Positions 12,566 to 16,225 of a stretch of 46,062 bases of DNA are shown here, in pieces (position 1 is the first letter of the stretch; every line of letters starts with the position of its first letter). The position numbers were made by a program, and so were the translations under genes. The stretch is taken from positions 1-46,062 of the forward strand of contig CAMBSL010000012.1 of assembly GCA_945870455.1 (NCBI GenBank), written 5' to 3'. The notes under the pieces were generated by a model that searched no databases, had not been told where the DNA came from, and was given only the letters and a program-made list of their open reading frames with translations. This DNA comes from Pirellula staleyi DSM 6068 (lineage in GTDB: Bacteria; Planctomycetota; Planctomycetia; Pirellulales; Pirellulaceae).

Positions 12566-13183
12566 CTATGAGGCTAGTTGTTTGGTATACAAGTACGGGT
12601 TCAGCGTCGGGTCGTTGTACATCTTCATTTGTCGATACGTTCGGTGCCGTTTCGCACCCCGATAGATGTCGTCCAGCAACTCCTTGAGCGACTGGGACAA
12701 GTCATGCCGTTGAAGGCGACAGATCGCTAAGCGAGTGTTTACTTTTTCCATATGCGATTCGTCGACATCGACGCGGGATAACTGCTCCTCCAGATGATAA
12801 ATGCGAAGCGACATGATCGACAATCGATCCATCGAACTGCCAGGTGTTTCCGTATTGAGTTTTGCACCTTCCACGCTCTGGATTGAGTGCCGCGACAAGT
12901 CCTCGGTTATCCAATCGTCGATGCGTTCGATCCAATCGTTTCTAGACTGGTTGAATCGATCGATATTGCGTTTCACGGTTGCGATTTGCGAATCGGTGAC
13001 TTCGCGGCTTCTCGCAATGTCCTCCTCGTGCCAAAGCAAGTAGTTGAACTGATGCTGTTGACAGACCGTAGCTGCTAAACTTGACATCGAACCGTCGACG
13101 TCAAATGGATTATCGATAGGCTCAACGTGCCATCGCTTAACGCACTCAATTTGCATCGATCCAATCTCGTCAACTTCAATCAT
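12566..13183 (-). CDS. DUF4254 family protein
   Basis: The 205-residue protein has the DUF4254 signature: NYLLWHEEDIARSREVTD followed by IATVKRNIDRFNQSRNDWIE, then a helical C-terminal half (IYHLEEQLSRV, RLAICRLQRHDLSQSLKELL). The family is all-helical and uncharacterised; in planctomycetes and Bacteroidetes I recall it near cell-envelope or glycosyltransferase genes. No signal peptide is present. It begins 15 bases after the stop of the SMC-like gene on the same strand, so the two are very likely co-transcribed and possibly work together. Confidence 0.82.
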   Translation of the reverse strand: MIEVDEIGSMQIECVKRWHVEPIDNPFDVDGSMSSLAATVCQQHQFNYLLWHEEDIARSREVTDSQIATVKRNIDRFNQSRNDWIERIDDWITEDLSRHSIQSVEGAKLNTETPGSSMDRLSIMSLRIYHLEEQLSRVDVDESHMEKVNTRLAICRLQRHDLSQSLKELLDDIYRGAKRHRTYRQMKMYNDPTLNPYLYTKQLAS

Positions 13184-13198
13184 GATCGCCTCGCTTGT

Positions 13199-16100
13199 TT
13201 ACGCAGCCCGAATCGCACGGCAGTTTTGAGACCATTGTATCCAATCGGAGACTTCAGTCAGATCAGGAGCGGCAGAACCTCGCAAGATTCGGACCCCGGC
13301 CTTGCTGTTCGCAAAGCGAACCACTCTTTCAAACAAGACCGAAGCGTCCGCTGCCGCAACTTGTTCCGCTGTCTCGAAGCCAGAACCGACCAATAACTGC
13401 GAGTCATGTCCTCTAAGGTTGGGAATGCGACAAACGAGCAAGGCTTGCTGTTGCCATTGCTCTACATTCTCGGCGTTCACATTGCGATCCGCCAACTTTG
13501 CCGCAATATCCTTGGCATCCGATGCGATGAGGTCTCCGACAGAGTTAACATTTAAGGGCAACAATCGTTCGGCCATCCGCGGTCCGATGCTCGGAGCATC
13601 GATAACGGGACTATCGATATCAAGAAAGAATTTCCATTGAGAGTTTGGCGCACTTTTTGATGGCGAGGCGGATCGGGTTGTCGCAGAGCGTACTTGGGTC
13701 GGTGTCGAACGGGGCTGTGTCGAACGGGGCTGTGACGATCGGTCTGTCGTCTTGCGGGCTGTGGAATTGTCCGGTTCGTGATCGAGCTCGGCTGTCCTCG
13801 CGATACGCGGTCGAATTTGGCCATCGTGTGATTGGCGAGGTTCGTTTCGAACTGCTTGTTCTCGATCTCGACGCGCTGGGGAATTTGCTTGGTTGTCGCT
13901 CGTTCGAGAACTGCGTTCCAGCGATCGCTTCACGTTCGCGAGCCAGCCTTGGATTCGAGAGACTTCGTAGGGACTAGCCAATTGAACGAGATCTTGCCCA
14001 GCGGTGCTAATCATGAAAGACTCGACCCTGTGAACGAGAGCCGAGGCTGGCATTTCTCGTAACGCGATGGATCGACTGATTCCACATCCAACCAACACTT
14101 GAGCATCGAAAGCCCGCAACTGTGGAGTGCCGCACATGAGGTCCGCAACTTGCTGGACATGTTCAAGCACATTCGTATCGACTCGGATTGCATTTCCAAG
14201 CTTCGATGCAGGTGCTTGCAATAGATCACCCACGCGATAAATACCGATGGAATGAAAGCGGCGCGACAATTCGGTATCAACACCCGGTGCCTCGTGAACA
14301 GGGCTGTCAACGGACAGGTAGTAACGCTTGTTTTCGGATGCAACTGGAGGTTCGATGAATTGAGGTTGATGTTGCCGTGGAGTTTGTTCAGCGTGCGACC
14401 AAGAATAGGATGCTTGTTCGTTGGCCAAGCCACTTAATTGGCGGTTAAGTTCACCGAAACCAACGCTCGGACTGTCGATTCCAATAACTCGGAATGGTCG
14501 TATTTCTTGAGTCGGCTCATGAAATGCAGATTGTTCTAAAGATGGATGCAAGCCGGCGTCGACTTGGCCGTCCAAAATGAAATTGGGCCGAGCATAACGC
14601 ATGATTTCTTGCATGCGAGACACGGTCCCACCGTGTGCACCGATTCGCCGAGCAGTGTATTCATCGCTGGTGGATACAAGCAGTTGCCGACCGTCGCGAG
14701 CAAAGGTTGCCAACACGTGAAGGATTTGTTCCAGCGATTCGCCTCGGAAATTCTTGATAGAGTCGTCCAGCAGCAGCGGAATACGACCGATGCGATTCAC
14801 GGACGCCTCGGCAATCGCAAGTCGAATTGCCAAATCCACGAGCTTGCGTTGACGGGTACTCGCCGCAGGCACGGATCGATCCAAGTACTCTGTCTGGTTG
14901 ACCTCGGTCGCCACATCGGATGCGTCTCGAAATTGATCTTTCGGATTGAGGTAGGAAGCTTCTAACGCCCAAGGTGGTAGTTGTCGAGCTGCCCCGGAGG
15001 TCAATTCGCGTAGGAATTTCTCAGCGGCTGGAATGAGCGACCCGTCCATCGTGCGACGGTATGGCGAACGAGTCCGCAGGTGGGATTGCACTTCTGCAAG
15101 CCGACGGTTGGACTGGGCTCGTCGATCCCACCGTTTTAGCATTTCCTCGGCGTTTGCATGCTGCTGCCTGAGCTGCGAATCGTCCCATCGCTTCACAGGT
15201 TCAGAAATTGCAACCGCAGACGGTGGAGCATTTCGCAACTGAATTTCAACGCTCGCTTGTTCCGCAAGCAGGTGCTCGATCTTCAACTGAAGCCGTTGCC
15301 TATCACCAGAGAAATCAACGCGGCTTGAGGCGTTTCGAGGCGAACCGTAGTTCGACGGATGAAACGACATATTGCTGAAATTCATGCGATGATCTTCGCG
15401 ACGATAGCCATCGAGCTTGGTGTTGGCTTCATGGATACCAAGTTCTTGGAGATCCGAACGAAGCTTTGATATTTCGATTTGGATGGATACCAATCGCTCG
15501 CGAAGCGCTACGACCGCCAGCGAGTCCGATTGAACTTGCACTGGAATAACATTTTGCGTGTTGACTTGCTGCATATGAGTCAGTTCGGCGGCAAGGCGAT
15601 CGCGTTCGATGGACCACCAAGCCCGATCGTGATCCACGTTTTCAACATGCCGCAATCGATCGAGCAAATCTCGCTCTTCGGCTTTGAGTCGTTGGTAGCC
15701 CTCGTCCACTTCGGAACGGGAGCTGGCATGCACCCCTAGCCGGTTAGCAGCCCACCACAGCTTTTCGGGCGGAACACTTCCAAGCGGACTGCAAAAAATC
15801 ATCCCAAGAATGTCGCTACGAAGGTCGTCCCAGCGACCGTCTTGCTCGTCACCTTCGCCAAAAGTGTTGCCGAGACCTCGAACGTAGGTGCGATCCTCCG
15901 CGTGGATGGGGCGTTCGGAGGGGTGCAAGGGCGAATGAACGAATCTCGTTGGCATTTGAAATGCGCCGCCCGCGTAGGACATCATACGGATGTGTCCCGA
16001 TGCGTCGACCCATTGAAGCGAGCCGTCCGTCATCTCGTTAAACTCGTCGTGGTTCGCGTCAGTCGATGCGAAACTGCGGAACAGCAAACCTCGAACGAAT

Positions 16101-16225
16101 CGAGCCAAAGTGTCGCTGCCGCAAGGGACAACCGCGTAGATGGCGTTTAAACCGCTACCAAGCGGTCCAACCTGGAGATGTTCGGCCGAATTCTTTCGGT
16201 CGATGTCCAATCGAATAATATGCAT
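13199..16225 (-). CDS. SMC/RecN-like coiled-coil protein with a degenerate P-loop and two DUF4332 (HhH-like) modules
   Basis: The N-terminus has the layout of YhaN/Rad50-like ATPases (GLNAIY..., LARFVRGLLF), but the segment that should read GPNxxGKST is AVVPCGSDT (31-39), so the Walker A lysine is missing. A helical, coiled-coil-rich middle (~170-380) follows. The ATPase C-terminal lobe is partly kept: STRQRKLVDLAIRLAIAEA (456-474) and a Walker B-like RIPLLLDD (481-488) are visible, but the ABC signature glycine is absent. Two DUF4332-like modules follow (~635-768 and ~864-1003), each starting LSVDSP or LDIDSP and containing RVGDLL/SVGDLI and LRAFDAQVLVG/LRGHDSQLLVG. A Ser/Arg/Thr/Pro linker (770-860) joins them. 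It may be a catalytically dead structural or DNA-binding scaffold, co-transcribed with DUF4254. Confidence 0.78.
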   Translation of the reverse strand: MHIIRLDIDRKNSAEHLQVGPLGSGLNAIYAVVPCGSDTLARFVRGLLFRSFASTDANHDEFNEMTDGSLQWVDASGHIRMMSYAGGAFQMPTRFVHSPLHPSERPIHAEDRTYVRGLGNTFGEGDEQDGRWDDLRSDILGMIFCSPLGSVPPEKLWWAANRLGVHASSRSEVDEGYQRLKAEERDLLDRLRHVENVDHDRAWWSIERDRLAAELTHMQQVNTQNVIPVQVQSDSLAVVALRERLVSIQIEISKLRSDLQELGIHEANTKLDGYRREDHRMNFSNMSFHPSNYGSPRNASSRVDFSGDRQRLQLKIEHLLAEQASVEIQLRNAPPSAVAISEPVKRWDDSQLRQQHANAEEMLKRWDRRAQSNRRLAEVQSHLRTRSPYRRTMDGSLIPAAEKFLRELTSGAARQLPPWALEASYLNPKDQFRDASDVATEVNQTEYLDRSVPAASTRQRKLVDLAIRLAIAEASVNRIGRIPLLLDDSIKNFRGESLEQILHVLATFARDGRQLLVSTSDEYTARRIGAHGGTVSRMQEIMRYARPNFILDGQVDAGLHPSLEQSAFHEPTQEIRPFRVIGIDSPSVGFGELNRQLSGLANEQASYSWSHAEQTPRQHQPQFIEPPVASENKRYYLSVDSPVHEAPGVDTELSRRFHSIGIYRVGDLLQAPASKLGNAIRVDTNVLEHVQQVADLMCGTPQLRAFDAQVLVGCGISRSIALREMPASALVHRVESFMISTAGQDLVQLASPYEVSRIQGWLANVKRSLERSSRTSDNQANSPARRDREQAVRNEPRQSHDGQIRPRIARTAELDHEPDNSTARKTTDRSSQPRSTQPRSTPTQVRSATTRSASPSKSAPNSQWKFFLDIDSPVIDAPSIGPRMAERLLPLNVNSVGDLIASDAKDIAAKLADRNVNAENVEQWQQQALLVCRIPNLRGHDSQLLVGSGFETAEQVAAADASVLFERVVRFANSKAGVRILRGSAAPDLTEVSDWIQWSQNCRAIRAA
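13703..13732. repeat. 15-bp tandem duplication inside the SMC-like gene
   Basis: TGTCGAACGGGGCTG occurs twice in direct succession and encodes the repeated Q-P-R-S-T units in the linker between the two DUF4332 modules. Being in frame, it changes linker length by five residues per copy. Confidence 0.85.

Follow-up and report, generated by a model that had tools for sequence, protein, structure and literature searches.

A 1008-residue protein of Pirellula staleyi DSM 6068 has lost the ATP site of an SMC/YhaN-like head, while the head keeps its predicted fold and the rest of the protein stays under strong purifying selection. The gene lies at 13199..16225 on the reverse strand of contig CAMBSL010000012.1 (assembly GCA_945870455.1), whose positions 1 to 46,062 were analysed as one stretch of 46,062 nucleotides, the window; all features described below are on this reverse strand. 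SMC/Rad50-type proteins are ATP-driven machines. Since the ATP site is lost while the remainder of the protein is selectively maintained, the job of such members apparently does not need the motor that defines these proteins. A nucleotide-independent scaffold had been suggested in an initial annotation of this DNA and is still the best reading, given the genus-wide loss of the P-loop and the purifying selection on the protein, although the function itself is something that we infer: to a YhaN-derived pseudo-ATPase in the role of a docking or scaffold protein that needs no nucleotide we assign an even chance.

Head fold and domain layout

The two open reading frames (ORFs) of the initial annotation, 15 nucleotides apart, were confirmed by their coordinates and by Pfam. 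DUF4332 (PF14229) matches the 1008-residue protein in two stretches (8.1e-26, 91 bits against a gathering cut-off of 23.2) and DUF4254 (PF14063) matches a 205-residue protein encoded at 12566..13183 (5e-51, 172.8 bits against a cut-off of 27). The Pfam scan of the longer protein found no AAA, SMC or ABC family, and phmmer, run with the full-length sequence on the sequences of the PDB, returned no match.

The presence of an SMC-type head, also claimed in that annotation, is borne out by structure prediction. An AlphaFold (AF2) model of residues 1-634, built on a 57-row family-wide alignment, has a pLDDT (predicted local distance difference test) score of 73, with values over 90 in large parts of the two lobes and in most of the head core. 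An earlier full-length model from 25 close rows had given a head pLDDT of 58 and no significant PDB match: the deeper alignment produced a good head model where that of close relatives had given a poor one. When the head model was compared with the PDB by Foldseek, 47 matches were obtained at E<=1e-3, the best (2.7e-8) to an SMC head, and the matches listed are heads of SMC, cohesin, condensin, MukB, Rad50, RecN, RecF and Lamassu proteins. Model and matches together place a bipartite ABC-type head fold in the window protein. At the profile level the head finds the YhaN of the same genome (G000:C54) at an E-value of 2.4e-45; this paralogue carries an intact GPNEAGKTTL and has an SbcD/Mre11-like neighbour gene.

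The N-terminal head lobe (residues 1-225, 15551..16225), delimited by the model, the fold matches and substitution ratios, is composed of strands at residues 2-10, 15-19, 26-30, 66-74 and 77-83 and a helix at 34-48. This helix, which follows strand 26-30, begins within the former P-loop. A shortened coiled-coil arm (residues 226-345, 15191..15550) is indicated by model helices at 235-280 and 305-332 and by motif spacing: the P-loop position and Walker B are 454 residues apart, compared with 622-653 in canonical relatives and 940-1047 in YhaN, a spacing that leaves the window protein without a long coiled coil bearing a hinge or hook. The C-terminal head lobe (residues 346-545, 14591..15190) is defined by strands and helices of the model and again by substitution ratios.

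Beyond the head, DUF4332 module 1 spans residues 634-775 (13901..14326; second Pfam stretch, module hidden Markov model, pLDDT of ~85) and is joined to module 2 by a linker rich in S, R, T and P (residues 776-861, 13643..13900) that is disordered in the model. That this linker is expandable, as previously proposed, is evident from alignment: L002 lacks the QPRST block, and across the family the length ranges from -1 to 268 residues. Module 2 (residues 862-1008, 13202..13642; Pfam 878-997) contains the helix-hairpin-helix (HhH) hairpin DAPSIGPRMAERL. The DUF4332 hairpins resemble the HhH elements of the RAD51C N-domain and the polymerase iota thumb, with weak E-values and, for RAD51C, a good local superposition. 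The protein ends in R1003-A-I-R-A-A1008 (13202..13219), in keeping with a family consensus R-x-[LV]-x-A-A-COOH in which alanine occupies position -1 in 103 of 105 members and position -2 in 97 of 105, and arginine position -6 in 99 of 105; an AA ending is found in 95/105 family members against 48/646 other ORFs. A similar ending is shared by proteins in which DUF4332 is attached to other domains. In form the tail is like the ssrA-type C-terminal degrons that ClpX recognises, or else like the conserved end of a last helix.

Loss of the ATP site in the genus and the family

At the Walker A position (residues 31-39, 16109..16135) the window protein reads AVVPCGSDT, where alignment of the genus orthologues with P-loop-bearing relatives leaves neither GxxxxGK[ST] nor any GK[ST]. 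The region of the ABC signature and the next helix (residues 452-470, 14816..14872; aligned to LSRGTREQ in YhaN paralogues) is VPAASTRQRKLVDLAIRLA, compared with a VEVLSRGTREAVFIALRLS-type sequence in the same-genome YhaN (LEVLSRGTREAVFIALRLS in L036). STRQRK stands where YhaN has LSRGT, so that LSxG is absent, and the switch segment is TSDE instead of TCHEH, the switch histidine being gone. The initial annotation was correct on the signature and on the missing GK[ST], and the latter extends far beyond one protein: each of the 24 same-genus genomes searched in addition to that of the window carries an orthologue, and GK[ST] is lacking wherever the N-terminus could be read. Among species of the genus the former loop differs (AVVPSGSDT, APIPGGSDT, ATAAAGSAA, APLQGGSAT, SPIPAASAL, SPLVSNSTL). 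A local mutation or an assembly error is excluded by this fixation across the genus. The reported Walker B-like LLLDD (residues 484-488, 14762..14776) is present in the window protein but is not conserved within the genus, most members of which carry EN, EH, DN or DH in place of the last two residues of hhhhD[DE]; the 25 members divide into DD 7, EN 8, DN 4, EH 4, DH 1 and DE 1.

In the two closest comparisons the ratio of nonsynonymous to synonymous substitution rates (dN/dS) is 0.18-0.20 overall, 0.12-0.15 in the N-lobe and 0.21-0.24 in the C-lobe; the former P-loop alone comprises too few residues for a reliable value. The gene is thus under purifying selection, its head included.

The family is widespread in a large group of planctomycetes. 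An orthologue profile matches 165 of 199 genomes sampled from the taxonomic family of the window, in 54 of 68 genera, and named carriers in an open genome collection include Pirellula-like metagenome-assembled genomes, Rhodopirellula, Neorhodopirellula, Aporhodopirellula and Blastopirellula. In the 109 distinct long proteins extracted for comparison of layout and motifs, the arrangement is near-uniform: a YhaN/SMC-like head is followed by two DUF4332 modules, the second at the extreme C-terminus. Most relatives outside the genus have an intact P-loop, including the sister genus (GARGAGKS in L127 and L128) and orthologues elsewhere in the class, among them those of another family (L188-L192), which makes the loss in the window genus derived. 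Homologues with GK[ST] therefore exist, a finding that the initial annotation would have taken as the sign of a local mutation; the loss, being fixed in the genus and recurrent elsewhere, is not a local mutation.

Between these states lies a gradient of decay. A few members are fully canonical, with GPNGAGKT-type P-loops, LSRG and VLDD (L095, L096, L099, L100, L101 and L104). A Rhodopirellula-like group keeps GPEGSGKT, shows no LSxG and has LVLET as its Walker B. Its members of 1460-1660 residues (L093, L107, L116 and L172), with the P-loop kept, LSxG absent, LVLET or similar, and an insert after Walker B, probably bind ATP but hydrolyse it poorly. Other members show single-residue damage to the P-loop (GASKT, GAGKK, GSGKA, GSGKG, GAGRT), and in further ones it is wholly gone (for example GQETAHRAA, FDTSAERHRD, FHRDSETIRS and ADRREILES). 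At the other extreme L195 (1724-5983) is a YhaN with GPNETGKST, VLVNFD and FTCHLH plus tandem C-terminal DUF4332, plausibly the ancestral form and a likely evolutionary intermediate.

The number of losses was assessed on a tree of 104 rows built from the DUF4332 modules alone, and hence independent of the P-loop trait. On this tree, a quick search with a midpoint root, supports from the Shimodaira-Hasegawa-like approximate likelihood-ratio test (SH-aLRT) only, 31 weak branches and several long ones, the P-loop state requires 13 parsimony changes, at least seven of which are forced by well-supported branches. The scoring pools single-residue damage with complete loss: of 15 maximal all-lost clades, 10 contain members without any GK and the others have single-residue substitutions. 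The window genus forms one clade of 25 (support 99), the largest loss clade, adjoining the P-loop-bearing sister genus (support 88). On this scoring the P-loop has been lost recurrently within the family, in about 15 clades, and the keeping of the layout each time would imply a retained function that needs no ATP.

The DUF4254 neighbour and the competing explanations

The two genes are separated by 15 nucleotides (13184..13198), where a ribosome-binding-like GAGG precedes the ATG of the second, the DUF4254 gene. In the subclade of the window DUF4254 is adjacent and co-directional, with gaps of 14-164 bp among pair-bearing relatives, and about half a dozen contexts differ in their flanking genes; the maintenance of the pair amid changing flanks favours co-expression. 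In the other subclade, about half of the genus, DUF4254 lies on a different contig beside different genes; by eye, a CNT-type nucleoside-transporter-like ORF adjoins it in L045, L050, L054, L057 and L060, some of which also have a MazG-like ORF. Outside the genus, DUF4254 was not found close to the gene of any family member at the loci examined, and it occurs in genomes of the order that have no full-length match to the long protein. In flavobacteria it has been reported linked to rfaF (PMC9425974). The two-gene unit of the initial annotation thus holds for several neighbourhoods of the window subclade, is unlinked in the other and absent elsewhere, and on this linkage evidence is real but recent and local. 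An obligate two-gene complex, which the tight and persistent pairing might be taken to indicate, is accordingly quite unlikely, and DUF4254 as an obligate partner is ruled out beyond one subclade by the unlinked or absent gene.

The most serious rival to a scaffold is a poison or regulatory head, in which the dead head would pair with an active SMC or YhaN head in the cell and limit its ATPase cycle. A precedent exists in Caenorhabditis elegans SMCL-1, an SMC head without coiled coil, dead for hydrolysis, which acts as a regulator of condensins (PMC5373644), and candidate targets are at hand, as YhaN-like matches occur in many genus genomes besides the motif-intact YhaN of the window genome; the progressive shortening of the arm fits as well. 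SMCL-1, however, keeps Walker A and has lost Walker B and the signature, whereas the window protein is devoid of Walker A too, and pairing in an ATP sandwich requires nucleotide on each head. The long protein moreover has a wide distribution and a long history in its taxonomic family, unlike a recent inhibitor paralogue, and a physical link with YhaN was not found, so that we consider this explanation unlikely. Improbable, too, is unconventional nucleotide use, by which a remodelled pocket would bind a nucleotide or another ligand, with functional Walker B acids in part of the genus: the LLLDD of the window protein and the several lost members that are one residue off would suit it, but the former loop varies from AVVPCGSDT to ATAAAGSAA and SPLVSNSTL with no conserved lysine, and Walker B is not DD in 18 of 25 genus members. 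Very improbable is a relic decaying under relaxed constraint. Motifs and coiled coil have been progressively lost and linker and coil lengths vary, as decay would predict; it is contradicted by a dN/dS of about 0.2 overall, lower still in the N-lobe, by orthologues free of internal stops and by the keeping of the gene in 24 of 24 genus genomes. Pseudogene status is excluded by the ratios and the open frames.

The docking or scaffold proposal draws on what is conserved, namely two head lobes and two DUF4332 modules with HhH-like hairpins. Its ancestor would be a YhaN-type SMC/Rad50-like ATPase that gained two DUF4332 modules as a tail. After earlier losses of the signature and the switch, the P-loop would have been lost in the ancestor of the genus, giving a pseudo-ATPase that presumably hydrolyses no ATP. 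Without the P-loop lysine, LSxG and the switch histidine, ATP-driven head engagement is unexpected from ABC/SMC biochemistry. The two head lobes may still fold together and offer a protein-binding surface, while the tandem DUF4332 on its flexible linker may bind either DNA itself or a partner on DNA; the DUF4254 protein is, in the window subclade, probably co-translated with the long protein and may act with it. Several points weigh against this proposal. A degenerate P-loop may be compatible with weak or unconventional nucleotide binding. The protein is near neutral, with a net charge of -5 overall, and module 2 is slightly acidic at -3, values that do not speak for non-specific binding to DNA. 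Nor need DUF4332 be a DNA-binding domain: in relatives from elsewhere in the order (L032:5097-7343 and L033:4178-5770) it is fused to a domain like zinc-dependent phospholipase C. A bolder version, which we regard as doubtful, is that the core of this SMC-type machine never strictly needed ATP: its ATPase cycle would have been dispensable and dropped on some 10-15 occasions, and what remained would be a constitutive head and tandem-HhH scaffold, which in one subclade recruited DUF4254 as an additional, new subunit.

Relation to known systems

Repeated loss of the ATP site, with head fold and architecture under selection, constitutes a natural experiment on what such heads can do without ATP, and because a single orthologous family spans the gradient from canonical to no motifs, a comparison of its members offers a direct test of the question. 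The family further provides a setting for the uncharacterised domains DUF4332 and DUF4254. In line with the initial annotation, which had seen no such unit described, no account of the family was found in the papers searched on DUF4332, DUF4254, YhaN/SMC proteins, degenerate Walker A motifs in SMC proteins, and planctomycete Rad50 or helix-hairpin-helix proteins.

Among the nearest known systems is YhaN, the Bacillus subtilis-type SMC-like ATPase (AAA_27/AAA_23), which has the same head fold and lobe order and similarity at the level of sequence profiles, with L195 as an intermediate. The window protein differs in the missing P-loop, signature and switch histidine, in an arm roughly half as long, in its tandem DUF4332 and in the absence of an SbcD-like neighbour. 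The best fold matches are to Rad50/SbcC and SMC heads; compared with them the window protein has no ATPase motifs and short coils, a hinge or zinc hook was not recognised, and no Mre11, kleisin or ScpAB gene adjoins its gene. Lamassu LmuB also has an SMC-like head, and the window protein shows a weak PADLOC match to it (8.6e-5) together with Foldseek matches to Lmu structures. The family, by contrast, is not patchy but occurs in almost every genome of its group, and the window protein lacks the ATPase motifs; neither LmuA nor LmuC was recognised beside the window gene, whose sole close same-strand partner, DUF4254, has no PADLOC match. An anti-phage Lamassu assignment was rejected on these grounds, the similarity being weak and confined to the head. 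SMCL-1 shares with the window protein an SMC-derived head for which no ATP hydrolysis is predicted, a reduced coiled coil and a restricted lineage (PMC5373644), but it retains Walker A, regulates a eukaryotic condensin and has no HhH/DUF4332 tail. Dead SMC heads are therefore already known; what is new here is a bacterial, family-wide and recurrent loss in proteins that carry a DUF4332 tail.

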